From a virus: DNA of 28,678 bases. A model generated the notes under the pieces. The model was given only the letters and a program-made list of their open reading frames with translations. It was not told the DNA's origin and made no database searches. Shown here in pieces: positions 1,875 through 18,967 of this stretch (position 1 is its first letter; every line of letters starts with the position of its first letter). Position numbers and translations under genes: made by a program. The stretch lies in IMG/VR virus record IMGVR_UViG_3300034062_003694, positions 1-28,678 of that record; one strand, written 5' to 3'.

Positions 1875-3767
1875 CTAAGTGAGTGCCAGGACTAATCCGA
1901 GTTTGACGCCGCCAGACGGCCCCGTCGGAAGCGTTAGGTTCAACGCTGGCGGCGACCCAGTGATCGACGCGGAAGCTGCCGTGCCGCCCGTGACGGTGCC
2001 GATAATGAGGCTTTGGGCCGTCAGCGCGCCGATCGTGATCGAACCGTTTGCGGTAGTCAGGCTTACGTTACTGCCAGCGACGATGCTGACTGATCCCGTC
2101 TGCCCGTTTAGTGACTGAACGTAATCGTGACCATGAGTGCTTGATGCTGCCGTGACGTCGGACGCCGAGAGGCTGACAGCCCCCGTCCGTCCGTTGACGC
2201 TGATGACGTTCGCAACACTCGTCAGATTTGTGATTTCAGATGCGAGGTGCGTGTGCGATGCCGCGGCGGCTGTCAGGTCGGCGGCCGTCAGTGAAACAAC
2301 GCCAGTTCGACCCTGCACGCTCACGACGTTGGCGACGCTGGTCAGGTTCGCGACTTCAGACGCAAGATGCGTGTGCGATGCCGCGGCGGCTGTCAGGTCG
2401 GCGCGAGTGATCGTCACTGCGCCGGTGCGCCCCTGAACGCTGGAGACATTTGCCACGCTCGTGATGTTTCCGATGTCGGAGACGGTCAGCACGACAGCCC
2501 CAGTCCTGCCGGCCACGCTCGTGACGTTCCCCACGCCGCCGCCGCCCGACGCGATCGTGATGCTTCCGGCAGCGGTCGTGACTGTGACGTTGCTCCCGGC
2601 AACAATGGAGAGGCTGCCGGTCTGTGCGTTCAACGTCTGAACGTAGTCGTGGGCGTGGGTAGCCGACGCAGCGGATACGTCTGCGGTCGTCAGCGTCACG
2701 GCGCCAGTGCGGCCGGCGACGCTCACGACATTGGCGACACTCGTGAGGTTCGATATATCGGAGGCGAGATGCGCGTGTGTCGTCGCGGCGGCCGTCAGGT
2801 CAGCGCGGGTGATCGTTACTGCTCCCGTGCGACCTTGGACGCTTGCGACATTCGCAACGCTCGTCAGCCCGACTACGTCTGAAACGCCATGCGTATGCGT
2901 AGCCGGCTGAAAGACTGTCGGCACAGACGACAGCGACGTGTACGAGATGGTGGGGATGCGGGCGATATTGAAAACGCCAGTCGTCACGTCCGTAGCGGCG
3001 TGTGTGTGCGACGCGGCAGCGGCAGTGATTTCCGTGCGGCTGATGACAACGCCGCCAGTGCGACCATTCACGCTGGAAACAGGCCCGTACTTTGCCGCTT
3101 CAGTAGCAAAGTCGGTAATGAAACTTGCGGCGTGCGTGTGAACGGCAGCGGCGCATGACAGCTCCGTTGAAGTCAGGACAACAGTCCCGGTTCGCCCGTT
3201 GACGCTTGACACGGGGCCATACTTCGCGGCCTGCGTTGCGAAGTCTGTGATGCTTGCCGCCAGATGCGTGTGCGTCGACTCGGCAGCAGTCAAGTCGGCG
3301 GCTGTCAGGGCTACAGTTCCGGTGCGCCCGTTGACGGAGAATACCGTTGGTGCGGCGTATCCAGTGATCTGTGCCGTTGAGTGCGTGTGCGAAAAAGCGG
3401 CCGCCGTCAAATCCGACGCGGTGAGCGAGACAGTCCCGGTGCGGCCGTTGATGCTGGCAACGCCAGCGGGGGCGAGTCCGACGATGTCAGTCGCGTTGTG
3501 TGTGTGTGCGGATGCTGCCGCGTCAAGTTCAGCCCTGGTGACGACGACGTTGCCTGTTCGGCCCTGCACCGACTGCACCGGCACATTGCGTCCGATGATC
3601 GTGAACGACCCGCTGGTCGTTGTGACGGTGATGTTCGCTCCGGCCTCGACCATGAGGCTGGGCACCTGGGCCTGCCATGCCGTCCCGACGCCCACGTCGA
3701 CTGTTTCGTTGTTCGTGATGACCGTTGAGATGCCGGTGGCCCCAACGACGGTGACGTTGATGCTCAT
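1875..3767 (-). CDS. Long tail fibre with 11 GRTG / HxH repeats
   Basis: The 630-residue protein has 11 copies of a (V/I)(N/Q/A)GRTG-x-V-x-(L/I) unit, most followed by a helical A-A-A stretch and a Thr/Ser-HisXHis motif (11 HxH motifs, mostly HTH, plus HAH and HGH). Two related but different units (NAQTGSLSI, NGQTGSVSI) interrupt the series. Such V-N-G-x-T-G-x-V-x-L repeats are typical of trimeric phage side-tail and tail fibres. Evenly spaced HxH motifs bind iron along the axis of the T4 gp37 needle, so metal-stabilised trimers are plausible. The N-terminus (INVTVVGATGISTVITNN) probably attaches to the tail and the short Gly/Pro end (about 600-630) forms the tip. It overlaps the upstream gene by ATGA. 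Confidence 0.88.
   Translation of the reverse strand: MSINVTVVGATGISTVITNNETVDVGVGTAWQAQVPSLMVEAGANITVTTTSGSFTIIGRNVPVQSVQGRTGNVVVTRAELDAAASAHTHNATDIVGLAPAGVASINGRTGTVSLTASDLTAAAFSHTHSTAQITGYAAPTVFSVNGRTGTVALTAADLTAAESTHTHLAASITDFATQAAKYGPVSSVNGRTGTVVLTSTELSCAAAVHTHAASFITDFATEAAKYGPVSSVNGRTGGVVISRTEITAAAASHTHAATDVTTGVFNIARIPTISYTSLSSVPTVFQPATHTHGVSDVVGLTSVANVASVQGRTGAVTITRADLTAAATTHAHLASDISNLTSVANVVSVAGRTGAVTLTTADVSAASATHAHDYVQTLNAQTGSLSIVAGSNVTVTTAAGSITIASGGGGVGNVTSVAGRTGAVVLTVSDIGNITSVANVSSVQGRTGAVTITRADLTAAAASHTHLASEVANLTSVANVVSVQGRTGVVSLTAADLTAAAASHTHLASEITNLTSVANVISVNGRTGAVSLSASDVTAASSTHGHDYVQSLNGQTGSVSIVAGSNVSLTTANGSITIGALTAQSLIIGTVTGGTAASASITGSPPALNLTLPTGPSGGVKLGLVLALT
2248..2403 (-). 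repeat. Exact 36-bp direct repeat inside the fibre gene, 120 bp apart
   Basis: The 36 bases at 2248-2283 recur without change at 2368-2403. Each copy encodes the same TADL/RADLTAAAASHTH-type segment of the GRTG/HxH fibre. The 120-bp spacing is 40 codons, one fibre unit, so unequal recombination would change fibre length without breaking the frame. Confidence 0.85.
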
Positions 3768-4132
3768 GGGTTCGTCACCGTCACAGTGCCGGAGAGAACG
3801 GTTCTGGTGACAAGGCCGGTGTCAACCCACCGCATGTACCAGCGATAGGCGATCCCCGGCGAGAGTTGGCTCGTTTGCGACTCGGAGAGGCCGAGCAGGA
3901 TTTGCCCCTGCGCGAGGTTTGTGTTGCTGATAGAGAACGTCACCGCGATGGAGCCGACTGTCTCGACGAACGACGAGCCGCCGCCGCCGGACGCAAAAAC
4001 GGCCGTGACGTAGATCGGGGCCGTCATCTGAAAGCCCGTCAGGTTGCGGTCGAAGTCCAGCGCAATGGCGACTTCATCCCCCTGGACGAAGGTGATGTCG
4101 AGCGAGCCGGGGAGTTGCGTAAAGACGGCCAT
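3764..4132 (-). CDS. Baseplate or fibre-anchor-like beta protein
   Basis: This 122-residue protein starts MAVFTQLPGSLDITFVQGDE and has strand-like blocks: VAIALDFDRNLTGF, IYVTAVFASG, IAVTFSISNTNLAQGQILLGLSESQTSQL, YRWYMRWVD and VLSGTVTVTNP. The pattern of an 'oomph'-type input (F-x-Q-G-D-x-x-x-x-x-x-D) and a final Y-x-W-x-x-x-x-x-D...V-x-x-G-x-x-x-V resembles the N-terminal domain of BppU-like phage baseplate proteins. That domain usually fixes a fibre to the tail, and this gene directly precedes the GRTG fibre with an ATGA overlap. The family call is from pattern only. Confidence 0.75.
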   Translation of the reverse strand: MAVFTQLPGSLDITFVQGDEVAIALDFDRNLTGFQMTAPIYVTAVFASGGGGSSFVETVGSIAVTFSISNTNLAQGQILLGLSESQTSQLSPGIAYRWYMRWVDTGLVTRTVLSGTVTVTNP

Positions 4133-7369: not shown

Positions 7370-8449
7370 TTAGTTTATTCTTAGCTGAAGAGTGCCGGTG
7401 AGGTTGATTGCCGTCTGCACCTGTCTGCGCCAGAGAATTACCTTTGGGTCTGACGTGTCGCTGCGCGCCGTGCCGTCTTCGTTGAGCGGAACCGGCTGCG
7501 CAGACGGGCTTTGGTAGACCTCGTCGCCGGCGCCGGCGACCTTCACCATTGCGCGAACCTTGCCGCCGCTGTTTACTGCCTTTTTCTGCAACTTAAACGG
7601 CTCAATGATTGGGCCGTACTCGCCGTTTCGTTGGAGCGGAAGCGCAAACGGGTCTTGGTCGCCTCGCGGCGCGGCCGGGTCGAACACCTTTGTGTTGAAT
7701 CCAGAAAGCGGCACAAGAACGTCCCACCCTATTTCACCCTCCCCGTCGATGAAGTTTGGGCGGTACATGAATTCGTAAGAGTTCATGAACCCGCTGTATA
7801 CGGCGTTTCCGAAGGTTTCGACGTGAGGCGTTGCCTCAACGCCACGAAACATGACGGTGTGCGGCCCGCAACTGAGGAAGTTGCCCATGCCCATTGCAAT
7901 GCTGTTGATTTTTCCGCAGTGCTCCGCTCTTGCTGTGCCTGGGAAAGTCTCGAACTGCGTGACCCTAATTGTCGTGACCGGCGCCAGTCGAGAGACGCCG
8001 TCCATGATGTCGCCGGCACTGTTTGCCACGGGCAACCACTGGTTGCCTTGTGGATATGGCACCCACTTGACGGCTGGCATCTCATACAAACTCGTACTCG
8101 TCGAAAAGTTCGCCGGCCGAATCGTCGGCATGACGAGCATTGGGTCTGGCATCCCAGTGCCGCCGTCGCCTCCGTCGACCATGCCGGAGGTGCGGTACTG
8201 GCACGTCACTATCCGCACGAGCCGGCTCTCGCCGTCGGCTCGGCCCTCGACGCTCACGCAGGGGATCGGATTCGCCGAACTGTAGGGGTCGCCGATCTGA
8301 ACGCCGACGGCCGACATAATGTCGATCGACTCACTCGGCGAGTCGAGGATGATCTTGAAGACGCGCGTTGCGGTATCGGCCAGTTGCCCGCCGTCTGACG
8401 AACGGCTGAACTGGTTGCCCTGCGCGAGTTCGCTGACCAACTTGGGCAT
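7370..8449 (-). CDS. Unknown distal-tail protein
   Basis: This 359-residue protein follows the tape measure region and starts MPKLVSELAQGNQFSRSSDGGQ. It is a soluble beta-rich protein with several aromatic Gly/Pro loops (YPQGNQWLPVANSAGDIMDGV, CGPHTVMFRGVEATPHVETFG, EIGWDVLVPLSGFNTKVFDPAAPRG). There is no membrane segment or catalytic motif that I can name. In lambda-like phages this position is held by the distal tail or tail hub proteins, so one of those roles is plausible, but the sequence does not match the DUF or Siphovirus tail patterns I know. It ends seven bases before the repeat protein. Confidence 0.7.
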   Translation of the reverse strand: MPKLVSELAQGNQFSRSSDGGQLADTATRVFKIILDSPSESIDIMSAVGVQIGDPYSSANPIPCVSVEGRADGESRLVRIVTCQYRTSGMVDGGDGGTGMPDPMLVMPTIRPANFSTSTSLYEMPAVKWVPYPQGNQWLPVANSAGDIMDGVSRLAPVTTIRVTQFETFPGTARAEHCGKINSIAMGMGNFLSCGPHTVMFRGVEATPHVETFGNAVYSGFMNSYEFMYRPNFIDGEGEIGWDVLVPLSGFNTKVFDPAAPRGDQDPFALPLQRNGEYGPIIEPFKLQKKAVNSGGKVRAMVKVAGAGDEVYQSPSAQPVPLNEDGTARSDTSDPKVILWRRQVQTAINLTGTLQLRIN

Positions 8450-8452
8450 CTA

Positions 8453-8821
8453 TCAGCCCTCCGTAATGTCGACGCGGAGGCGGGTGCCGGCCGTGCCGAT
8501 CGCCTGGTAGTTCGCGCCGCTGCCGAGCCGAAAGAGCGCCGGCTCGCCGGCCCGCAGGGTGCAGAACCGGAGGAACGACCCGCCGGCGTCGATGCCGATC
8601 GCGGCCGTCGCATCGTTCGCCGTCGACAGGTTCCGCAGGAACGCCAGCCCTACGCTCGACAGGTTCGCCGTCGATATGTTGACTGGATTCGTCGACAGGG
8701 CGAGCGTCATGCTGTTCATTCCGACTTCGCTCATGGTCGCCGTCACGTTGACGACGGAGACAGAGTTGTTGAGGTATTCCTTGTCGAGCTTGAGGGAGAC
8801 GTTGTAGGAGATGTCTGGCAT
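8453..8821 (-). CDS. Small beta-rich tail protein
   Basis: The 122-residue protein alternates hydrophobic and Ser/Thr residues in strand-like runs (YNVSLKLDKEYLNNSVSVVNVTATMSEVGM, MTLALSTNPVNIS, GGSFLRFCTLRAGEPALFRLGSG) and ends AIGTAGTRLRVDITEG. A run like S-S-V-G-x-A-F-x-R-N-L-S-T-A followed by G-E-P-A-L-x-R-L is something I associate with phage structural genes of unknown role. It lies 13 bases after the tape measure and three bases before the next gene. A distal tail or tail-tip part is likely. An AAGGGAA 10 bases before the ATG is a weak Shine-Dalgarno. Confidence 0.7.
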   Translation of the reverse strand: MPDISYNVSLKLDKEYLNNSVSVVNVTATMSEVGMNSMTLALSTNPVNISTANLSSVGLAFLRNLSTANDATAAIGIDAGGSFLRFCTLRAGEPALFRLGSGANYQAIGTAGTRLRVDITEG

Positions 8822-8834
8822 GACTTTATTTCCC

Positions 8835-11800
8835 TTAGTTGGCTACTGGCTGTTCGTTGTCGGCGATAATCTGCAGAAGCCTGTTCGCTTCTCGTTGCAA
8901 GACCACGAGGTCTTGGTTCTTTGCGGGGTCGTCGCCTCGCAGTAGGCGATTTAGTTCCTGCTGACCTTGGGTCGTCGCGATGTCGGATGCGTTGAGTGCT
9001 GCTCGCGATGGGCCTTGCAGGACGGCATTTCTAACGGCATCGGCCATGCCTGCGATCGTTGGGGCTTCTCGCCGCATTATGCCTTCTCGGGCGCGGCCGA
9101 TGGCTTCGTTCATCCGGTCGCGAATTTTCTGGACGTCTTCTGGAAGACCGCTGCTTTCCTGCGCTGCGAGATTTGCGTACTCACGAATATCGGCGATCTG
9201 CTGCCGAAGTTCCTGCGCAGCGCGCTCTCCTTCCGTCAGCGTCAAGTCGCGTCCCCTCATCGGATCGCCGACAGGATTGCGCCTCTTTTCGATTTCTTCA
9301 AGAACCTGCCGCTCGCGCTCAAGCCCTTCGATGACCCTCCGGCGGGCAGCTTGCTCTTGCGCGAGCGCGTCCGCTGCTGCCCGCTCTGCCTCCGTCAGCG
9401 CGAAAAGCCGCCTTTCTCGCTCGGCAAACAGTTCGGCCTCTCTGTTAGCAAGCCTCTCTGCCGCCGCCGGGTCAACGACAGTGCCGTCAATCTTGGCTTG
9501 CGCCTCAAGGCGGTTGCGTATCTGGTCAATGCCAGAAATTTGGTCGTTGATTGCTATGACCGCCGGGTCGCTCATCGCCTCCGAGCGCCGGCGGTCGATG
9601 GCATTTTGCGCCCTCGCCGCCTCCTCGCGATCGCGAATCAACTGCTGCTCGGCCTCATCTCTGGCGCGACGATTGGCGTCCGCTGGGCGCTCGTTGAAGT
9701 TTCTCTGTGCGTCGTTGGCGATGTTCTCGGAGTCAGACAACGCCCCTTCGACGACGCGGCGAAGCCGGCCAACGGCACCTTCCATTGCGATGGCCGCCTC
9801 GGCCAGCAGCGCGGCCACCTCGCCGGCCCTCTGGGCGGCTTCAAGTTCCGCCCTAGCCTGCGCCGCGGCGGCCTCGTTGCCAGACTTTTGCGCAGCTTCA
9901 AGTTGTATCCTGGCTGCGAACTCCGCGTCGGCGGCGGCCGCGACTTGCGCAGTCAGTCTTCCAAATTCGTTCCTGAACCGCTCGTTGCCTTCCAGGGACG
10001 ACAGCGCCCGCGTCGTGCGCTCTCCACCGAAGGTTTGACCGAGGCGAACCTCGCGGGCGGCTTCGGCGATGGCGTCCCTGCGGAGCTGAATGTCGTTGAC
10101 GGTGTTCTGCGCCCGGCGAACAGCCAGCTCGCGATCCTCTGGGTTTCTTATCCCAGACGCATCGCGAAGCGCTTGCTGCGCTTCGTCGAGTTGCTGCGCA
10201 GTATTGTCGAGGGCGGCCTGGAAGTCTGCTGCTCCAGAGACGCCTCGCCGAATCGCATTCGCGACGTCTTCCTGGGCGCTGCCGATTGATGTTGCTGCTG
10301 CCCGCGACTCCTTCAGCACATCGAGCGAAAGCTGGTTGATTGCATCGAGGAGCGGCCCCTCAAGGCTGTTCAGAAGCCGCTGCAGCGCCGCAATGTCTCC
10401 TCCTCCGCCGGCAGAAGAAAGCCTCGAAATCTCCCTTTCGATAGCCGCACGCTGCGAGCGAACGGCTTCGACCGACGTGCCGGCGTCAACGGAAGCGACG
10501 TCCCGCTCAACCCTGGCCTGAATCTGGTTGACAGCGGCTGGGTTTCCGACTGGGATTCCCTGCGGCCCGAAAACGCCAGACCGCGCCACCATTTCGGAGT
10601 TGGCAATTCGCCGGAGGAGGTCAATGACGTCAGCGCCTGTAGCCCTTCTGTCGACTGCCTGCCGAGTGGCCTGCTCCTCTCGAACGCGAGACTCGTCGAG
10701 TTGCCTTGCGAGTATTACGCGGCGCCCTGGGTCTCTCTCGGACTCAAGTTGCCGCTGGATGTCAGACTGCCGCGATCTTTCGCGCTGGACGCCCTCATCC
10801 AGTTCAGACACACGGGATTCCCGCATCTCCCTTTGCTTCTTTGCAATGGACTCTAGTTCCTTTGCAAAAGCCCTTGCCTCCTTCGCCGGAGCAGAAAACG
10901 CATCCCTTGCTATCGAGTCGCCGAGAGACTCGAAGGCTTGGCGAAGGTCTTCTGCAAGAGACTTCTGGCGAGCCAGGGCGTCGTTTAGCAGCTTCGTCCT
11001 TCTGTCTGCCTCTTCAGCGCCAGTTGCCCATCGCAGAATGGCGCTCACGGCCTGCCCGGCAAGGACTGTCGAGAGGCCGATGAAAAGTCCCGTCGTTGCG
11101 GAGAGACCAGGAATCACGCCGGATTGCCCGAGGAGCAGCCCAAGTTGCGTGATGTTGTTGCCAACCGCGCGGAGTCTGTATTCCAGACCACCTGTAGCAG
11201 AGAACAAATCGTCAACAGCGAACAGCGCCTGCTGGAACGCCAACTGCGCCACCTGAGCGCTTCTGACGCTAATGGAGCCTGCGCTGTTTCGCGCCATCGC
11301 CATCGCTTTCTCGATCTGCTGCGTGTTGAAGGCGCCGCCGCTGAGTTGCGCGATGAGGGCAGCAAGCCCTTTCGTTGACTGTCGAATCTCATTGTCGAGC
11401 CTGTCGAGCTGCGCAATTTTTGAGCCATCGTCTATATCAGAGGCAGCGACTTGCGCGATCTTCTGCTGCAGTGCCGTCACGCTTGTTGTAACGCGGTCGA
11501 TTTCTCCCTGGATTGCGATACGCGCTGATCCGCCCGCAATCTGTCCGCGGAACTGCCGAGCAACAGACAGGTCGGCGGCTGCATCGCGGGCGCCCTGCGA
11601 CAACTGCTCGCCGCGGCCACCGGATGCCTCAAGGAACAGGTTCTGCTGGCGGCGAGCATCGTTCGCGACGTTGATGTCTGCGGCGAGCTTCTGGTATCGC
11701 TTCGCCTGCTCGTCGAGCAAGGCATTTCCCCGTGCCAGCGCAGCGTTTGCCGCCGTGATGTTTCCGCTCTTTGCGGAGTTGAAAGCGTCCCTGAAAGCCT

Positions 11801-13163
11801 TGTTCGCCTGCCTTGAGAATTTGTCGAGTTCCGCCGCTTGTTTCTGCAACTCCGGCGCGCCGAGCTCGTCGGCCTGCCGCTGAAGTTCTTTATTTCTCGG
11901 AATGATTTCGTCATTCAGCCGAAGCCTCGCCAGATTGGCGTCTCGGCGGATTTCTGCCCTGGGGACGCTCCCTCTCCCAGACTGCTCGATCTGGGCGCGC
12001 TCCCTGTCGAAGTCGCGCCGAATCGCCTGCCTGCTCCTCTCCGTAGACGAAAACAGCAGGCTGTTCGTCTTGCCCAGCAGGTCTCTGCCTGTGTTCAGTG
12101 AGTTCAGTGCCGCGCTGATGCCGTCGATGGCCCGCTTGACCTGCGACGCAGACGCCTCGCCGCGATTGAACTGCTCGACCAACCGGCCGGCCCCAGAGAT
12201 CAGCCCCTCGAACTGCGTGCCGCCGACGGCCCGGAGGGCACCGGCGGTGGTCTTGAGTTTCGCGATCAAGTCGTCAACTGCCGTCTCGGCGCGTGGCGAA
12301 ACGATCTGGTCGATCTGCGCGGATCGAATCTGCGTCTGCAGTTGCCTGTTGATGGCCTGCTGGCGCCGCGTCAGCGCGTTGAGGTCGCCTTGGGCGGCGG
12401 CCAGCGCCTCCTTGCGTCCGGTCGTCTCGCCATCGTCCGCGATCTGAAGTTGGACGCGAAGCACCCTAGCGGCCGCCTTCTCGATTCTGGCCGCGTTCCT
12501 GTCGGCCTCGATCGCGAGGTCTGCGAACACGCCGTCCTCGCGGAAGCGGGAGGGCAACTGCTCGGCGCTGCTGCGGAGGGCAATCGAGCGCTGGAGCGCT
12601 TCTTGTGCTCGCGGCTGCGCGAACGACGCTCCTACGTTGCTGATGTCGAGCGTCTTAACGAGGCGCCCGAGGTCGCCGGCTGCGGCTGCGGCTTGCCCGA
12701 GCCGGAGGAGGCGTCGCTGAAGGTCGTCTACTTCGGCAGAGAACTTCGACAGTTCTCCACCACCCTGAATAGCCCGATAGACGTCTTGAAACCGCCGCTG
12801 CACCTGGCCGAGGGCCGGGTACAGGCCGGCCTGCAGGTTGTTGCTCAAGCCCTCGATCTTCTTGACCAATTCCGTCAGCGGTTTGCCGACGTCCTCGAAG
12901 ACGCGAAACTGCTCGTCGAGCTTCTTGGGGTCGATCCCAAGGTCGATCCCCTTTGCCCGGAGGCTAGTGATTTCCTGAATCGTTCGCTGAAACTTCTGCA
13001 GTTTCGTCAGCGTGCCGTCGAGGGCGCGGGTGTTCAGGTTCAGTTCAATGCCCTGAACCTTCTTGGCGAATTCCGTCAGTTCCTTCTTCGCGGTTCCTAT
13101 GTTCCGCGTGAAGTCCTGCGTGTTCGCGGAAATGACCGCAGAGATTTTGCCTAGAAACGCCAT
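8835..13163 (-). CDS. Tail tape measure protein
   Basis: The 1442-residue protein is by far the longest gene. It is almost entirely helical and rich in Ala, Arg, Glu and Gln, with a conserved-type start (MAFLGKISAVISANTQDFTRNIGTAKKELTEFAKKV) seen in many tape measures. Long coiled-coil stretches fill residues 10-640 and 720-1440. One hydrophobic stretch at about 672-712 (ITQLGLLLGQ then GLFIGLSTVLAGQAVSAIL) is the usual membrane-active segment. The protein sets tail length and is released into the cell during injection. At about 0.15 nm per residue, the rule of thumb for tape measures, the tail would be near 200 nm, so a long flexible tail is expected. It follows the G/GT chaperone gene, as in lambda. 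Confidence 0.95.
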   Translation of the reverse strand: MAFLGKISAVISANTQDFTRNIGTAKKELTEFAKKVQGIELNLNTRALDGTLTKLQKFQRTIQEITSLRAKGIDLGIDPKKLDEQFRVFEDVGKPLTELVKKIEGLSNNLQAGLYPALGQVQRRFQDVYRAIQGGGELSKFSAEVDDLQRRLLRLGQAAAAAGDLGRLVKTLDISNVGASFAQPRAQEALQRSIALRSSAEQLPSRFREDGVFADLAIEADRNAARIEKAAARVLRVQLQIADDGETTGRKEALAAAQGDLNALTRRQQAINRQLQTQIRSAQIDQIVSPRAETAVDDLIAKLKTTAGALRAVGGTQFEGLISGAGRLVEQFNRGEASASQVKRAIDGISAALNSLNTGRDLLGKTNSLLFSSTERSRQAIRRDFDRERAQIEQSGRGSVPRAEIRRDANLARLRLNDEIIPRNKELQRQADELGAPELQKQAAELDKFSRQANKAFRDAFNSAKSGNITAANAALARGNALLDEQAKRYQKLAADINVANDARRQQNLFLEASGGRGEQLSQGARDAAADLSVARQFRGQIAGGSARIAIQGEIDRVTTSVTALQQKIAQVAASDIDDGSKIAQLDRLDNEIRQSTKGLAALIAQLSGGAFNTQQIEKAMAMARNSAGSISVRSAQVAQLAFQQALFAVDDLFSATGGLEYRLRAVGNNITQLGLLLGQSGVIPGLSATTGLFIGLSTVLAGQAVSAILRWATGAEEADRRTKLLNDALARQKSLAEDLRQAFESLGDSIARDAFSAPAKEARAFAKELESIAKKQREMRESRVSELDEGVQRERSRQSDIQRQLESERDPGRRVILARQLDESRVREEQATRQAVDRRATGADVIDLLRRIANSEMVARSGVFGPQGIPVGNPAAVNQIQARVERDVASVDAGTSVEAVRSQRAAIEREISRLSSAGGGGDIAALQRLLNSLEGPLLDAINQLSLDVLKESRAAATSIGSAQEDVANAIRRGVSGAADFQAALDNTAQQLDEAQQALRDASGIRNPEDRELAVRRAQNTVNDIQLRRDAIAEAAREVRLGQTFGGERTTRALSSLEGNERFRNEFGRLTAQVAAAADAEFAARIQLEAAQKSGNEAAAAQARAELEAAQRAGEVAALLAEAAIAMEGAVGRLRRVVEGALSDSENIANDAQRNFNERPADANRRARDEAEQQLIRDREEAARAQNAIDRRRSEAMSDPAVIAINDQISGIDQIRNRLEAQAKIDGTVVDPAAAERLANREAELFAERERRLFALTEAERAAADALAQEQAARRRVIEGLERERQVLEEIEKRRNPVGDPMRGRDLTLTEGERAAQELRQQIADIREYANLAAQESSGLPEDVQKIRDRMNEAIGRAREGIMRREAPTIAGMADAVRNAVLQGPSRAALNASDIATTQGQQELNRLLRGDDPAKNQDLVVLQREANRLLQIIADNEQPVAN

Positions 13164-13167
13164 CGAA

Positions 13168-13808
13168 TCATCCTTGATTCAGTTTCATCAACTCTGCGGC
13201 TATCTGTTCCTGCGACTGCTCCGGCTTGAAAGCCGATGGAATGAACGCGCTCTCGTCAGGCACGTCACCCTTTTTGTAGTTGCCAGAGGCGCACATAACG
13301 ATCCTGCAGAGCCGCGCCGTTTGCTGCCACGAATCCGGCAAAGGCCACCGCTGGTCGTATGCGAACCATTCCGACAACTCCTCGCTATCAATCTCCGACA
13401 GCAACTGCTTTACTGTCTTTCCGAGCGCCAGCGCTAGGCGGAAGTAGAACCGCCGCTCTGGTCGCTCGGAGAATCTTTTCCCAGTGCTTCGACGTCTTCG
13501 CTCCTGAACGCATTGACGGCCCACGCCTTGTCGAACAGGCGGTTGATGACGATCGCCGACTTGCCACCAAGCTGGTCGACTTCGTCGTCGGTGAACAGCC
13601 TGGCGCCCTTGTCGTCCGACAACGTAAGCACAAGAAACCTTGAGCGGAAGTTCTTCATCTTTTCGGTCGAGTACGACTCCTCGAACGAGTCGCGCTCTGT
13701 GCCTGAGAGCGTCTTGATGAACACATCGCCGCCCCACTCGGGCACGTTGACCGGGCCGTCGAGCTTGACGTCATTCGCCGCCAGAATCGCCTTCTTGTTC
13801 AGAGCCAT
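13168..13808 (-). CDS. Tail assembly chaperone GT fusion made by -1 frameshift
   Basis: Ribosomes that slip back one base at GGGAAAA (13482-13476) after 111 codons of the G frame continue for 102 codons, giving a 213-residue GT protein. The T part reads RFSERPERRFYFRLALALG, then TVKQLLSEIDSEELSEWFAYD, a pattern typical of lambda T / DUF4035 proteins (R-L-A-x-x-L-G-x-x-V-x-x-L-L...E-L-x-E-W-x-A-Y). It then runs to FKPEQSQEQIAAELMKLNQG. The T part has no good start of its own: the open frame upstream is Arg-rich nonsense read out of frame with G. G and GT together hold the tape measure for tube polymerisation. Use of the slip site is inferred from sequence, not measured. Coordinates give the whole span including the slip. 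Confidence 0.88.
13434..13808 (-). CDS. Tail assembly chaperone, lambda G-like short form
   Basis: This 124-residue protein is the product when no frameshift occurs. It starts MALNKKAILAANDVKLDGPVNVPEWGG and contains VFIKTLSGTERDSFEESY and DDEVDQLGGKSAIVINRLFDKAWAVNAF. This is the usual fold of phage tail assembly chaperones: a beta N-terminus describing 'V-x-V-P-E-W-G-x-x-V-x-V-x-x-L-x-G-x-E-R-D', then helices. It ends GSTSA after the slippery site. It lies just after the third tail-tube-like gene and before the tape measure, the standard place. It should act transiently in the cytoplasm and not be present in the mature tail. Confidence 0.9.
   Translation of the reverse strand: MALNKKAILAANDVKLDGPVNVPEWGGDVFIKTLSGTERDSFEESYSTEKMKNFRSRFLVLTLSDDKGARLFTDDEVDQLGGKSAIVINRLFDKAWAVNAFRSEDVEALGKDSPSDQSGGSTSA
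13476..13482 (-). other. Programmed -1 ribosomal slippery heptamer GGGAAAA
   Basis: On the mRNA strand the heptamer GGGAAAA sits in the G frame as CTG GGA AAA, exactly the X-XXY-YYZ register needed for tandem slippage. It differs only in the last base from lambda's GGGAAAG. After the slip the codons read AGA TTC TCC GAG, joining G to the T-like frame. Confidence 0.9.
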
Positions 13809-13809
13809 A

Positions 13810-14175
13810 CTAACTCCCTTGATAATCAGTCATCTGAAACCGCAGCGACCCCCGGACGACCTCGCCGACGCGGGCTTCCGTGGACGCCGAAACCAAAATT
13901 GCCCTCCTGGCAACCGAATACGAAGTAGATGAGAAGGACAGTTGCCCCACGGTGCCGACGATCGTCTGCGTGTCGAGCGTCCCGTGGTGCAGGTAGTCCA
14001 CGTTGATTGTTCCGCCCGTCCAGTCGCCGGTCGGAACCATGACCATGAAGCCTTTGGCCGTCGAGGCGTCGGTCATGTTCGTGACCTCGGCCGTCGGCGT
14101 CTCCACCGAGATGCCCGTCACATACCCCCAGCTTCCGCCGAAGGAGAACGTCGCGCTCTGCGGAATACCTGGCAT
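13810..14175 (-). CDS. Tail-tube-like protein, third tandem paralog
   Basis: The 121-residue protein starts MPGIPQSATFSFGGSWGYVTGISVE and ends GEVVRGSLRFQMTDYQGS. It shares with its two upstream neighbours a F-x-F-G-G-S start, a V-D-Y strand in mid protein, VG-x-LSFSSTS-x-x-x-AR, and a G-(D/E)-(I/V)-V-R-G-S-x-x-F end. It has the most diverged middle, with a Trp and Met-rich insert (FMVMVPTGDWTGG). Position between tail terminator and chaperone is that of the major tail protein in siphoviruses. It may form the tube itself, or a specialised end ring. The ATG follows AGGTG at a suitable distance. Confidence 0.75.
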   Translation of the reverse strand: MPGIPQSATFSFGGSWGYVTGISVETPTAEVTNMTDASTAKGFMVMVPTGDWTGGTINVDYLHHGTLDTQTIVGTVGQLSFSSTSYSVARRAILVSASTEARVGEVVRGSLRFQMTDYQGS

Positions 14176-14183
14176 GGCTACAC

Positions 14184-14534
14184 CTAGATTCGAAACGACG
14201 CACTGCCGCGAACGATGTCACCGAGACTGGTCGTGACCTGCGACGAGACGCAGGTAGCGGCAGTGCTCGAAAACGCGACTCTGCCGGAGACGGACAGAGC
14301 CCCGACGGCGCCGACGCTCGGGATCGTCTGGCCGATGTAATCGACGTCGACTGTCTGCAGCGAGTCGACCGACTTGTGCAGGTAATACACGGGCTCTGTG
14401 TCGTTCGGCCCCAGCCCCATGTGCGGAGCCGACACCCGTTGCCGCTCGGCGCCACCGTTGACGGTGACGCTGGTGACGGTGTAGTTCGACCCAGCGAAGG
14501 CGAAGTAGGTGCCTTGTGAGCTGACCCCAGCCAT
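14184..14534 (-). CDS. Tail-tube-like protein, second tandem paralog
   Basis: The 116-residue protein begins MAGVSSQGTYFAFAGSNYTVTSVTV, very like the first paralog (MAGISSQGLTFQFGGSNLTVTSVQV). It continues with SAPHMGLGPNDTEPV, VDVDYIGQTIPSVGAVGALSVSGRVAFSSTA and ends GDIVRGSASFRI. The match along the full length shows a gene duplication. The repeated beta pattern fits a tail-tube monomer, though 116 residues is shorter than lambda gpV. It starts after the first paralog's stop with AAGGCGAC before the ATG. Confidence 0.78.
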   Translation of the reverse strand: MAGVSSQGTYFAFAGSNYTVTSVTVNGGAERQRVSAPHMGLGPNDTEPVYYLHKSVDSLQTVDVDYIGQTIPSVGAVGALSVSGRVAFSSTAATCVSSQVTTSLGDIVRGSASFRI

Positions 14535-14540
14535 GTCGCC

Positions 14541-14876
14541 TTACGCGACGCGGAAGGTCGCGCTCCCGCTGATGAGGGCACCCACCGAACCGCCGATCGA
14601 GGCCGACGCGAGCGTTGCGGTTCCGCTGAACGACATCGGGCCAGAGATTTGCAGGGTGCCGGAGGTTCCGGCGGAGAGCACCGTATTCGAGATGTAGTCG
14701 ATCGTAACCTCGCGCTCTGTGGCAAAGCCGCCGACGAACTCACGGCGGCCGTTCGGGGCGATGCCGAGGTGCGAGCCGTCAATGAGGTCTTGGGTGTCAC
14801 TGACCTGAACCGATGTGACCGTGAGGTTGGAGCCACCGAACTGGAACGTGAGTCCCTGTGACGAAATGCCAGCCAT
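14541..14876 (-). CDS. Tail-tube-like protein, first tandem paralog
   Basis: The 111-residue protein starts MAGISSQGLTFQFGGSNLTVTSVQV, then SHLGIAPNGRREFVGG, VTIDYISNTVLSAGTSGTLQISGPMSFSGTATLASAS and ends ISGSATFRVA. It has the strongest Shine-Dalgarno of the three (AAGGAGG eight bases before ATG), which suggests the highest expression and perhaps the main tube subunit. All beta, no enzyme motif. The order tail terminator, three tube-like genes, chaperone, tape measure supports a tail role. A decorating or spacer ring role is the main alternative. Confidence 0.8.
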   Translation of the reverse strand: MAGISSQGLTFQFGGSNLTVTSVQVSDTQDLIDGSHLGIAPNGRREFVGGFATEREVTIDYISNTVLSAGTSGTLQISGPMSFSGTATLASASIGGSVGALISGSATFRVA

Positions 14877-14903
14877 CTTTTGCGCCTCCTTGCGCCTAAA
14901 CTG

Positions 14904-15332
14904 TTACCCGGTAGCCTCTGACCACCGGATTGAGTAAAGTTGTCGAACTTCGTATGCCGGTGGAAGTTGAGCGCCAACTTCGGTTGGGTCGATGTAGTCG
15001 TCGACCTCCGAAACCAGCCTCATATCACTAATTGTAACCCCCGCCAGCGTCCCGGTGTTTCCATCCAAAGCCAGCCGAACCTCGTCCGCAAGCTCGCGGA
15101 CGGCGTCGTAGCTGAGCGCCCAGCAGGAAATCTGCAGGCTGACGACAGGCTGGAAAAGCGGGCCTGTCAAAGTCGACTCGCGCTGAATGTTGACGCGCCG
15201 ATAGGCGATAAGCGGCATTGATGCGCCGGACTTTGGCACAGCGATCGGATAAATCTGGAATCCGACAAGTCGCGCCACGGCCGGCGTTGACGCCAACTTC
15301 ATGTAGACGTGTTTTTCTGGCGAAAGAAGCAT
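14904..15332 (-). CDS. Tail terminator / tail completion protein (DUF3168-like)
   Basis: The 142-residue protein starts MLLSPEKHVYMKLASTPAVARLVGFQIYPIAVPKSGASMPLIAYRRV. The order helix, V-x-x-R-(I/L)-Y-P, P-x-x-x-x-x-P-(L/Y)-I-x-Y, then SLQISCWALSYDAVRELADEVRLALDG is typical of phage tail completion proteins such as lambda U/SPP1 gp17 types. These form the ring that stops tail growth and joins the head. It overlaps the HK97 gp10-like gene by one base (TAATG). The position before the tail-tube genes is standard. Confidence 0.88.
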   Translation of the reverse strand: MLLSPEKHVYMKLASTPAVARLVGFQIYPIAVPKSGASMPLIAYRRVNIQRESTLTGPLFQPVVSLQISCWALSYDAVRELADEVRLALDGNTGTLAGVTISDMRLVSEVDDYIDPTEVGAQLPPAYEVRQLYSIRWSEATG

Positions 15333-16054: not shown

Positions 16055-16371
16055 CACTGCACCTCCCTTGCAAGAATTTCGTGCATCGTGCGGTTTTCTC
16101 GCTCGACAACGCTCGAGATTTCCATTGGCCGGCCGCGCCACACGATTCGGTGCGTGTGCGTCAGGCCGGGGAGAAAGCGAACGCGAATCTTGTGCGACGC
16201 GAGCGCGTTTGCCTGCTGCGCCTGGAGGATTTCGCGGCTCGACATTCCGTCGACGCTCGCCCAGACTGTCGCAAACGTGCTCCACGACAGTGTTGCCTCT
16301 CCAAGAGAGTTTCGAGACTCCACCGGCGCCTCGATCGTGACTCGCTCGCGCATGGTGCCTGCTTTTATCAC
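16054..16371 (-). CDS. Head-closure / head-tail joining protein (SPP1 gp16-like)
   Basis: The 105-residue protein has the typical M-R-E-R-V-T-I-E start, then N-S-L-G-E-A-T-L-S-W-S-T-F-A-T-V-W-A-S-V, a SSREILQAQQANALASHKIRVRFLPG block and a HRIVWRGRPMEI end. This is the Phage_H_T_join / SPP1 gp16 pattern. The protein forms a ring between connector and tail that closes the filled head. The start is a GTG at 16371 in a GTGA overlap; the ATG six codons in (MRERV) is an alternative. Confidence 0.92.
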   Translation of the reverse strand: MIKAGTMRERVTIEAPVESRNSLGEATLSWSTFATVWASVDGMSSREILQAQQANALASHKIRVRFLPGLTHTHRIVWRGRPMEISSVVERENRTMHEILAREVQ

Positions 16372-16853
16372 GTTATCGTGCCCTCACCGATGAGGACGAG
16401 TTCGCAGGAGCCGTTTGTGTCAGATGAAACGCCGAGGTAGCCGCCGGCCGTGCTCCACCCAGTTGCGTCTGAGCGGCACATGAACAAAACTGCGCCTGGC
16501 TTTACCTCGATGCCGCCGGAACCTGGCGTGACGTTTGGGCCAGTCTCCCAGTCAATCTTCGACATTGTGCTGAAAGGCGTTGCTCCGGTGTTCTTGATGT
16601 AGATGGTCTTTATCGCAGAGAAGTTCACGTTTCCTCGGCTGTCCGTGAAGTCCGTGAAGTCCTCGCCGCCAAAAAAGTATTCCCCATCAAACGCGCCGCT
16701 GAAACTCCACACAATCTGCGCCTGGTTCGCCCCGGTGCCGTCCGTGAGCGTGAGGGCATACGACGCTGGCGTCGCCCGCAGGGTCTTCGACAAGTCGCCT
16801 GTGCTCGTCTCGTGGGCGAGGATCGACAGCATGATTTGGGCGTTGAGTGGCAT
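16368..16853 (-). CDS. Neck-region virion protein, second of a paralogous pair
   Basis: The 161-residue protein starts MPLNAQIMLSILAHETSTGDLS and has GGEDFTDFTDSRGNVNFSAIKTIYIKN, then GSGGIEVKPGAVLFMCRSDATGW and a final TNGSCELVLIGEGTIT. The same order and spacing occurs in its neighbour upstream: S-x-G-x-x-(E/N)-V-(D/N)-F-S, then (C/Y)-(V/I)-KN, a (I/V)-(R/K)-x-G-(G/A)-x-(M/L)-x-x-C, then TNG-x-x-(Y/C)-E-(I/L)-x-(V/L)-(M/I)-G. The two are clearly duplicates. It is all beta by eye and has no enzyme motif. Located between connector and head closure, it could be a decoration or neck protein. It begins one base after the neighbour's stop. Confidence 0.75.
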   Translation of the reverse strand: MPLNAQIMLSILAHETSTGDLSKTLRATPASYALTLTDGTGANQAQIVWSFSGAFDGEYFFGGEDFTDFTDSRGNVNFSAIKTIYIKNTGATPFSTMSKIDWETGPNVTPGSGGIEVKPGAVLFMCRSDATGWSTAGGYLGVSSDTNGSCELVLIGEGTIT

Positions 16854-16854
16854 A

Positions 16855-17343
16855 TCAAGTTCCCATCACATAGATTTCGTAGGACTGGCCGTTCGTGCCG
16901 CCGATGCGGAGGATCGAGCCGCCAGAGGTGGTCGCGAAGCCGGCCGAGTTAGGGCATGACAAGAGCATTGCGCCGCCCTCGCGGATCGGGTAGCCGCGGA
17001 GCGTCAGGCTCCCCAGGTTGATCATCGGCGAGAAGTTCCAACTCGTGACGTCTTGCCTGAACACGCTGAACTGCGACCCCGTCCAGCCTGCTGAGAAGGC
17101 GATCTGATTCGTCTTCGACAGGTTCTTGACGCAGAGCAACTTCACGACGGCGATGCCGAGCGTCGAGAAGTCGACCTCGTCGAAGCCACCGGACGAAATT
17201 GTCCGACGGTCGCTGAACACCTTCGTGCAGTCGCCGACGTCGAACGAAAACTCAATCGGGTGCTCCTCTAGGCCGCGAGTCAGGCCGCTCTGCGACAGGC
17301 GCCGCGCTGTCACGCTGGCACGCACCTGCGCTAAGACGCTCAT
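16855..17343 (-). CDS. Neck-region virion protein, first of a paralogous pair
   Basis: The start at 17343 overlaps the connector stop (ATGA); the longer open frame upstream is a Arg-rich out-of-frame read through the connector gene. The 162 residues start MSVLAQVRASVTARRLSQSGL and include ISSGGFDEVDFSTLGIAVVKLLCVKN, YPIREGGAMLLSCPNSAGFATTSGGSILRIGGTNGQSYEIYVMGT. It matches the downstream 161-residue protein in domain layout. The role is unknown. I infer a structural part of the capsid or neck because both copies sit between two head-tail joining genes. Confidence 0.75.
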   Translation of the reverse strand: MSVLAQVRASVTARRLSQSGLTRGLEEHPIEFSFDVGDCTKVFSDRRTISSGGFDEVDFSTLGIAVVKLLCVKNLSKTNQIAFSAGWTGSQFSVFRQDVTSWNFSPMINLGSLTLRGYPIREGGAMLLSCPNSAGFATTSGGSILRIGGTNGQSYEIYVMGT

Positions 17344-17978
17344 CTGTATCCGCCCCAGCCGCTTGCTGCCATGAGGGTCTCGAACGTCATCGGGACGGCC
17401 ATCATCTGCCCGGCAGTCGCCGCCTCGCGGTTTGCATACCAGTGGCCGACAAGAAGCAGAATCCCGTGCTTGATTGTCTGCGGCACTGACGAGCCAGACG
17501 CCCCGTACCCCGCAGACCAGCGAACGGTGACGCTGTTTTCGTCTCCGCGAACCGGAGGCCACACTTCGAGGTATCGAGGGTAGATGCGCCCTGGGGTGGC
17601 GTATGAGTCGACCTGAAACGCGCTTGCGGCGCTAGTCATCACCTGCGACGCGCCGCCCTGGTCTCTGTATGTCACCGTCACGGTAGCCGAGAGCATCGGC
17701 GGCCGCGGCAGCACGATCTCGTGCTCTGGAAAGTTGTCGTACCTCGCCTCCCACGTTGTCGTGATCAGCGTGGTGTCCAGCCGCCCTTCGACATACTCTC
17801 TGGCACCGGCAATTAAAGCCGTGATGAGTGTGTCATCCGTGCTTGTGTCGACCCTGCAGTGCGCCTTTGCTTCGACAAGCGTCACCGGCTCAACGGTCGG
17901 CGCAACCGCGCGAACGAGGCTCCGGTAGGGAGTGAGCGCAATGTCTGGGTTTTCTGGTGACGGAAAAATCAGAGTCAC
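17340..17978 (-). CDS. Head-tail connector protein (phiE125 gp8 / HK97 gp6-like)
   Basis: The 212-residue protein contains AVAPTVEPVTLVEAKAHCRVDTSTDDTLITALIAGAREYVEGRLDTTLI, the clear N-terminal pattern of phage connector proteins (E-P-V-T-L-x-E-A-K-x-H-x-R-V-D...D-x-x-L-x-x-L-I-x-A-A-R). It is followed by strands with LPRPPMLSATVTVTY, then VTVRWSAGYG and VPQTIKHGILLLVGHWYANRE, the usual C-terminal helix. It forms the first ring under the portal. It starts with GTG in a GTGA overlap with the small gene upstream. Confidence 0.93.
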   Translation of the reverse strand: MTLIFPSPENPDIALTPYRSLVRAVAPTVEPVTLVEAKAHCRVDTSTDDTLITALIAGAREYVEGRLDTTLITTTWEARYDNFPEHEIVLPRPPMLSATVTVTYRDQGGASQVMTSAASAFQVDSYATPGRIYPRYLEVWPPVRGDENSVTVRWSAGYGASGSSVPQTIKHGILLLVGHWYANREAATAGQMMAVPMTFETLMAASGWGGYR

Positions 17979-18163
17979 TGCTGCCTGCGCTTTCTTGACT
18001 GAACCACAACCGCCGCTTTCTCGCTTCGCTCCTCGACCGTCGCCTCCTCGACAACCTCTTCGACGAGCCGCCTCGACTTCAGCAGGTTTGCGAAGCCGTC
18101 TGGAAAATCAAAGACCATGCCGGGTTTGTACCCGTCGAAGCCGCAGATGATGCGAACTTTCAT
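17975..18163 (-). CDS. Small head-module protein of unknown function
   Basis: The 62-residue protein starts at 18163 in an ATGA overlap with the glycosyltransferase stop. It begins MKVRIICGFDGYKPGMVFDFPDGFANLLKSRRLVEEV, the pattern of small proteins (K-V-x-x-(I/L)-x-x-F-x-x-Y-x-x-G-x-x-(F/V)-x-(F/W)-P-x-x-x-A-x-x-L-(I/L)-x-x-x-x-(A/V)-E) common between capsid and connector genes in phages. The tail (EEATVEERSEKAAVVVQSRKRRQQ) is charged and likely disordered. It may help connect capsid and neck. The function is unknown. Confidence 0.75.
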   Translation of the reverse strand: MKVRIICGFDGYKPGMVFDFPDGFANLLKSRRLVEEVVEEATVEERSEKAAVVVQSRKRRQQ

Positions 18164-18888
18164 TTTAGAACCCCCCAGGCTGTCTCTGGCGGCTTCTGGC
18201 CGCCGTTCCAAAAGTCGGTCGTGTGCTGCTGCACCTTGCCGCCGTCGACCTCGCGGCTGGGCCAGGTGATCATCAGTTCGGCGTGGCCGACGCTGATGTT
18301 CGTCGCGAGGCCCAGCTTGTTGCCGGCCTTAGCGAACCCTCGCCAGAACGAGATGTCCTCGTCCGTGTGCGAGCCATTCCAGTCGCCCTGCTCGTTCGGC
18401 GTGGCGACGAACCACGGCTTCGCCATCTTCTTGATCGCGTCTGTCTTGATCAGAGTCAGGCCGAAGTGTGCCGTCTCGACGAGTTGCACGGGCTTCGAGA
18501 ACCAGTCGCCGTCGACTATCGTTTTATCGTCGCTGCTCACGCCGGGGAGGGCAAACATCACGCACTGGCTCTCCCGCTTCGTCTGAAGCGGGGCGATCGC
18601 GTCGACGCCGCTGTGCATCATCAAGGCCAGGAGCGCCTCGACGGTCTTTGCGGAGAAGACAGTGTCGTAGTCGATCGTGAGAATCGCGTCGTACTTGTCG
18701 ATGACGCTTTCGATCGACCGCGTCAGGCACTGCCCGAAAAAGACCCCCGTATGTTTGATGACGGGAATCTGGTGCGGAGTCAGAGCCGAGTGAACACAGA
18801 AAAAATTGTCTGTGAAGCCGAGGCGCGGGGTGCTCATTACGGCAGCTACCCGCACCTCGGCTTCACACTGACCAACACGAATCAACAT
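18160..18888 (-). CDS. Glycosyltransferase-like protein, GT-A type
   Basis: The start at 18888 has AAGGAG seven bases upstream. The 242 residues contain YDAILTIDYDTVFS, where D73-x-D75 fits the metal- and sugar-nucleotide-binding DxD motif of GT-A enzymes. Other matching segments are VDAIAPLQTKRE, VETAHFGLTLIKTDAIKKM (a typical 'acceptor loop' strand) and GSHTDEDISFWRGFAKAGNKLGLATNISVGH (a D-E-D and final His, as in the catalytic end of GT2-like folds). The N-terminus (RVAAVMSTPRLGFTDNFFCVHSAL) fits a sugar-nucleotide fold start. Its gene lies among head genes, so the virion or host glycans are possible targets; DNA modification is less likely. The fold is likely, the substrate unknown. Confidence 0.82.
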   Translation of the reverse strand: MLIRVGQCEAEVRVAAVMSTPRLGFTDNFFCVHSALTPHQIPVIKHTGVFFGQCLTRSIESVIDKYDAILTIDYDTVFSAKTVEALLALMMHSGVDAIAPLQTKRESQCVMFALPGVSSDDKTIVDGDWFSKPVQLVETAHFGLTLIKTDAIKKMAKPWFVATPNEQGDWNGSHTDEDISFWRGFAKAGNKLGLATNISVGHAELMITWPSREVDGGKVQQHTTDFWNGGQKPPETAWGVLK

Positions 18889-18917
18889 CTGACGCTCCTT
18901 CTTAGTGAGGAGCGGGC

Positions 18918-18967
18918 GCGCATCCTTGCGCCTCACCGGCCATCATTGGCCGTCCCGCTGGACGGGA
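18918..18967 (-). promoter_or_regulatory. Three back-to-back GC hairpins after the decoration gene
   Basis: The 80-bp gap holds three perfect hairpins: 18953-18967 (TCCCG/CGGGA, 5-base loop), 18937-18952 (CGGCCA/TGGCCG, 4-base loop) and 18918-18931 (GCGCA/TGCGC, 4-base loop). The first begins just after the decoration gene's stop at 18969. No T-tract follows on the minus strand, so these are not ordinary intrinsic terminators. They could protect the 3' end of capsid mRNA or reduce read-through to the glycosyltransferase. Confidence 0.5.

Follow-up and report, generated by a model that had tools for sequence, protein, structure and literature searches.

Tandem tail-tube paralogues of an environmental siphovirus: a constant first gene and an exchanged cassette

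Organization of the tube gene locus

The DNA analysed here, referred to as the window, is an IMG/VR virus record of 28,678 bases with its structural genes on the minus strand, to which all coordinates below refer unless stated otherwise. They form a siphovirus structural module comprising the terminase subunits, portal, protease, capsid, connector, head completion, HK97-gp10-like, tail terminator, tube and chaperone genes, a tape-measure-sized ORF, and tip and fibre genes. The tube slot is bordered upstream by the tail terminator (14904..15332; PF11367, 2.8e-14; phrog_347 tail terminator, 1.9e-9) and downstream by the tail assembly chaperone (13434..13808; phrog_344, 7.9e-25). Between these two genes, the place of siphophage tube proteins, lie three tandem genes, each with its own start and stop: A (14541..14876, 111 aa), B (14184..14534, 116 aa) and C (13810..14175, 121 aa). 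The tube genes of all relatives with an intact slot are likewise in tandem between terminator and chaperone. A strong Shine-Dalgarno sequence of gene A, AAGGAGG (14885..14891), lies within the conserved GGCGCAAGGAGGCGC and has a duplex energy of about -10.9 in the window. A small inverted repeat, GTCGC-GTAAG-GCGAC (14535..14549), spans the stop of A and immediately precedes the B start. The 1442-aa ORF at 8835..13163, which has no PHROG match, was assigned as the tape measure protein by size and position; annotated phages with a related chaperone carry their tape measure in the corresponding position.

Several other genes of the module were recorded. A second tandem pair of related genes (16368-16853 and 16855-17478), located between the connector and head completion genes, matches phrog_22694, a family of unknown function, in both members; these are probable small virion proteins. 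A 258-aa ORF with a weak glycosyltransferase match (18160-18936; PF13632, below cut-off) sits between the capsid and connector genes, an odd site for such an enzyme. Likely fibre or adhesion proteins are encoded at 516-1490, with fibronectin III and laminin-G/lectin-like domains, and at 1875-3767, where numerous matches to tail proteins and a weak one to a phage tail repeat were obtained. The 122-aa gene (8453-8821) and the 359-aa gene (7370-8449) that follow the tape measure belong to no known family.

Homology and predicted fold of the tube proteins

An earlier note on this DNA, made from its letters, had described three tandem, related short genes at 13810-14876, all tail-tube-like, in the slot usually held by one tail-tube gene, and had proposed pairwise alignment and fold prediction as checks. 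The ORFs are located there, flanked by terminator (PF11367) and chaperone (phrog_344), and the Streptomyces phages and AbIPP1, among the inspected named phages with related chaperones, have a single annotated major tail protein there. A tblastn search of the window with A recovered B at 42% identity (E 3e-20) and C at 32% identity (E 2.5e-5). The z-scores of global alignments are far above chance (A-B 18.3, A-C 8.1, B-C 7.5; 0 of 1000 shuffles as high), with the neighbouring chaperone, terminator and 161-aa gene, taken as controls, at chance level in the same test. Profile-profile comparison of the family alignments gave probabilities of 99.8% for A/B, 98.3% for A/C and 98.7% for B/C. By these comparisons, A, B and C are true paralogues. 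The 122-aa gene after the tape measure was also considered as a fourth tube paralogue, being a weak top match of the B profile, and was rejected by profile-profile comparison.

No Pfam or PHROG family and no useful PDB sequence match was found for A, B or C, and the three genes gave no match to named phages at either the DNA or the protein level. Since the search of curated families was empty, their identity rests on fold, position and homology. AlphaFold2 was run for A and C on alignments of the locus proteins and returned all-beta models, with a pLDDT of 85.7 for A and of 72.6, or medium confidence, for C. The best PDB matches of the A model are the GTA neck/tube protein 6toa_G, the YDC107 tail core 9mfe and lambda V (8k36), and those of the C model are the Sf11 tail, lambda V and the YDC107 tail core; the top matches of the two models also include monocin tube, Hcp and Dit-type proteins. 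Among the matches of the A model in a viral model library are proteins that bear the names tail tube protein and major tail protein TP901-1. The helix beside the sandwich is very short in our models, with 3 helical residues in the A model and 4 in that of C, whereas ordinary tube proteins have a longer one at this place. In the GTA tube protein, an alpha-helix lies beside the beta-sandwich (PMC8718954). The fold-prediction check thus agreed with the earlier note for A and C, whose models match the solved tube proteins of GTA, lambda (V) and YDC107, and B would take the same fold, judging from its 42% identity to A.

Profile searches of about 9,800 proteins gave further indications. The A and C profiles had Streptomyces phage major tail proteins as their top-ranked matches, with weak E-values (0.016 at best); the C profile placed the phiSASD1 and Dubu tube proteins 1st and 2nd, and the A profile ranked the same Streptomyces proteins 2nd to 4th. 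The REF-x-GG stretch is present in A in canonical form. Taken together, the fold of A and C, the homology and the gene position support the assignment of A, B and C as tail-tube proteins.

Copy number and gene order among relatives

Loci around the tube and chaperone genes were gathered from viral contigs, nearly all of the relatives being metagenome contigs. Among the 152 loci in which terminator and chaperone are both present, the automatic count gave two tube genes in 109, three in 38, four in 5 and one in none. The 68-aa "fourth copy" of L108, L109 and L238 was rejected as an overlapping-frame artefact, which inflates the count at two of the five four-copy loci (L108 and L109). In an extension to 411 loci, the few environmental loci that appeared to be single-copy were not so: each such IMG/VR locus, when read, had a second tube-like ORF of 103-128 aa. 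The only real single-copy locus among the 411 is that of the isolate AbIPP1, which, like the other named phages with related chaperones (phiSASD1, Dubu and Wentworth), has one annotated tube gene in the slot. The question of the earlier note, how many copies relatives carry, is thus answered for the intact slots with two in most, three in some and four in a few.

The order of the genes is fixed in the tube gene tree, in which the first gene falls in an A clade, the last in a C clade and the optional middle gene in a B clade beside A. The exception is a divergent three-copy pair, L101 and L103, in which the middle gene groups inside the A side. B was found only in loci with three or four copies and, as placed by the tree, is the extra copy nearest to A. 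A single match was obtained in the genome collection, at L183 (6001-6735). This contig, from a Planctomycetaceae MAG, has two tube genes; it is a hint that points to the host, too little to name it.

Translation signals of the tube genes

In 56 near relatives, the ribosome site of A is near-perfect; its duplex energy averages -10.75, with 98% of the values at or below -7, compared with -3.9 for B and -4.5 for C, and the starts of B and C are often 2-6 bases past the preceding stop. Ribosome-site strength is a weak proxy for protein amount, and coupled starts can yield equal amounts. The match of codon usage to the capsid gene is slightly better for A, the difference being slight. In distant relatives, the ribosome sites of A and C are of similar strength. 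The ribosome sites and junctions are indirect evidence, compatible with A as the abundant subunit in the group of the window.

The inverted repeat at the A-B junction is common in near relatives and shows no covariation, and the hairpin was dropped as a claimed element of the window's group. A different, conserved hairpin, CATGACGG-N4-CCGTCATG, occurs at the junction of tube genes 1 and 2 in distant relatives (L162, L131, L160, L168 and others; alignment A4), with the ribosome site of the second tube gene in the loop and the start codon in the stem. Two of its pairs are changed on both sides, and 71% of the gene 1/gene 2 junctions of the distant relatives fold better than z = -2, compared with none of the A or chaperone starts. 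This suggests that, in the distant relatives, translation of the first tube gene may open the second.

Constant A and variable C

The three paralogues differ strongly in conservation. The mean pairwise identity over 56 distinct near relatives is 80% for A, 75% for the terminator, 67% for the chaperone, 54% for B and 50% for C. The variable positions of C are concentrated in loops at residues 14-18, 37-45 and 63-74, with length changes at residues 14 and 66, whereas the core is conserved, with less change in the strands and the C-terminal TDY region.

These differences bear on which gene encodes the main subunit. C, not A, adjoins the chaperone, as single tube genes do, whereas A adjoins the terminator, and it is the C profile that ranks the tube proteins of the Streptomyces phages phiSASD1 and Dubu first. 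The ancestral main tube gene could accordingly be C, corresponding to the one gene found elsewhere, with A forming a conserved special ring adjoining the terminator. We regard this arrangement as unlikely. It is A that has the strong ribosome site, among near relatives, and the slightly better codon match; A carries the canonical REF-x-GG and its profile ranks the same Streptomyces proteins almost as high; and a main tube protein is not expected to vary beyond its terminator and chaperone. We prefer A as the constant, probable major tube protein, and C as the variable member.

Exchange of C and of the B-C cassette

The distribution of the third copy does not follow the flanking genes. On the tree of terminator and chaperone, the third copy was gained or lost at least 7 times, whereas the C tree needs only 4 changes of copy number at the fewest, which indicates that B follows C. 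Two pairs of loci illustrate this at close range. L010, with three tube genes, and L019, with two, share 100% identity in the terminator, 99% in the chaperone and 96% in A, and 53% in C. L084, with B, and L018, without it, share 99% in the terminator, 98% in the chaperone and an identical A (100%), and 55% in C. Within the tube slot, both pairs differ only after A: DNA identity above 95% ends six bases past A. It is regained where C ends in L010/L019, and in L084/L018 about 80 bases short of the end of C. Looser pairs repeat the pattern (L022 with L023 and L065, L074 with L081, L107 with L104). Over all close pairs, C is at 59% identity or less in 14 of the 14 pairs with different copy number, which are not independent and involve two lineages (L018 and L019), and at 65% or less in 27 of the 119 pairs with equal copy number. 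As read from these comparisons, A stays nearly constant while C moves between phages as a cassette, either by itself or together with B, a result that the earlier note had not foreseen.

All of the loci compared in this way are metagenome contigs, and such breaks could in principle be assembly chimeras of mixed populations. We hold this to be extremely unlikely, as the same cassettes recur in contigs of different samples, the breaks are located at gene ends or close to them, and copy number tracks the type of C.

The window itself carries an exchanged block. Compared with L084, its proteins are 97% identical in C and 88% in B, and 75% in the terminator and 62% in the chaperone; compared with L074, the terminator is at 92%, the chaperone at 75% and C at 45%. 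At the DNA level, B and C of the window are 87-92% identical to L084, whereas terminator, chaperone and neighbours are at 56-71%, and the opposite holds against L074 and L081. From this opposition between block and flanks, the B-C cassette (13810..14534) is imported from another, L084/L017-like lineage. The two genes that follow the tape measure are likewise closer to the donor lineage (L017/L084) than to the backbone lineage (L074/L081), the 122-aa gene at 91% and the 359-aa gene at about 66-69%. Over 26 loci, C and the 122-aa gene are correlated in their similarity after the backbone is accounted for (partial correlation 0.41, 0 of 300 permutations), a correlation that is not specific, given values of 0.27-0.35 for capsid and connector; the correlation with the 359-aa gene is weak (0.15, 26 of 300 permutations). 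When L019 is compared with L007, clear changes are seen in two genes, C and the 359-aa gene. These similarities hint at a link between C and the tip that does not in itself imply contact.

Proposed composition of the tail tube

The earlier note had left a choice between a mixed tube and one tube with end rings or decorations. In a mixed ring, A and C, with B if present, would alternate in each hexamer in fixed proportion, as an unfused counterpart of T5 pb6, in which two non-identical tube domains alternate in a pseudo-hexamer (PMC5717097). At least two diverged paralogues are present in every environmental relative, and the short coupled spacing and the hairpin holding the second start in distant relatives would favour fixed ratios. 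Against this, L084 and L018 combine the identical A with different B/C sets, so that the pattern and contacts of the rings would have to change with no change in A, and the conservation of A is far above that of C. This argues against obligatory mixed rings, and we consider such rings improbable. Neither option of the note is thereby proven; the obligatory mixed ring loses ground and a constant A with lesser B and C gains it.

We therefore favour a model in which A is the constant main tube subunit and C and B are lesser tube-fold subunits on a cassette exchanged by recombination; taken as a whole, we give this reading an even chance. Most of the tube around the tape measure would most likely consist of A. 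C would be a second tube-fold subunit kept by each relative, with a weaker, coupled start that yields less protein, and B an optional extra copy from the A branch that arrives with particular C types. We infer that C, and B with it, form minority rings, at one tube end or scattered, in which the variable C loops would face outward. The recombination that swaps C or B-C, with breaks at the end of A and at or close to the chaperone start, leaves A, the terminator and the chaperone in place. The data establish the paralogy, the folds of A and C, the range of copy numbers, the gene order and the exchange with its breakpoints; the proportions of the subunits, their places in the tail and the cause of the exchange are inferred.

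The reason for the exchange is a matter of conjecture. Monomeric tube protein activates DSR2 (PMC10981675), and sensing of free tube protein by DSR2-like sensors, or co-adaptation with the tip, is a possible pressure behind the exchange of C. A tube of constant A plus an exchangeable part (C alone, or B with its matching C), swapped whole at gene borders in answer to such host pressure or to exchanged tip proteins, is an extension that we advance tentatively, at somewhat less than even odds. A stronger version would make B and C chiefly decoys or diversified targets, which would weaken the sensing of free tube protein by the host and would enter the tail little or not at all. The activation of DSR2 and the standing of C as the variable, exchanged member are in its favour. 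The strict keeping of C in all relatives suggests a structural need instead; we judge decoys to be very unlikely.

Tube proteins are usually treated as one uniform polymer. A large environmental phage group in which at least two diverged tube genes are always present, one of them traded like a receptor-binding gene, would imply that the tube is a multi-part, locally diversifying structure. The natural pairs of near-identical phages whose tube slots differ mainly after A make mixed rings versus special rings, and selection on tube proteins, directly testable.

Comparison with known tube systems

A literature search, with most subscription journals outside its coverage, found no phage group whose two to four tube genes are separate, diverged and exchanged as a cassette. 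Two apparent precedents were set aside: the "two major tail proteins" of JBD30 are neighbouring subunits in a ring, and the "two tail tube proteins" of a pelagiphage are tail tube A and B. For actinophages, two annotated major tail proteins are listed, such as gp17 and gp19 of Microbacterium phage Damascus and members of clusters EL, AM, AU, AW, BI, CC and DJ (PMC11080557, PMC10652937); in the available parts of these sources the pairs appear as annotation only, and paralogy, copy-number variation and exchange are not described.

The single major tail proteins of siphophages (phiSASD1 gp34, Dubu gp12, Wentworth gp20, Rhodobacter GTA Rcc01691 and lambda gpV) share with A, B and C the slot between terminator and chaperone and the tube fold, and their profile similarity to A and C is weak but top-ranking. 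They differ in being one protein of about 130-145 aa (longer in lambda gpV), compared with two to four paralogues of mostly 106-136 aa here, and in the helix, very short in the A and C models, and the curated family match, absent here. The tail of SPP1 contains two tube proteins, gp17.1 and gp17.1*, at a ratio of 3:1 (PMC7666168); the SPP1 proteins are produced from one gene by frameshift and share a core, whereas the present genes are separate and 32-42% identical. Microcystis phage Mae-JY09 (L180) has a tandem pair of 233 and 137 aa in the same slot (2770-3471 and 3481-3894) with the shared tube motif AESSTFGADWKQYV-GL-DAT; it belongs to another sequence group, and its first copy has a C-terminal extension. 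As in A, B and C, the two non-identical tube domains of T5 pb6 arose in one phage by duplication; in T5 they are joined in one fused protein that forms trimers (PMC5717097), whereas here they are separate genes, one of them optional and exchangeable.
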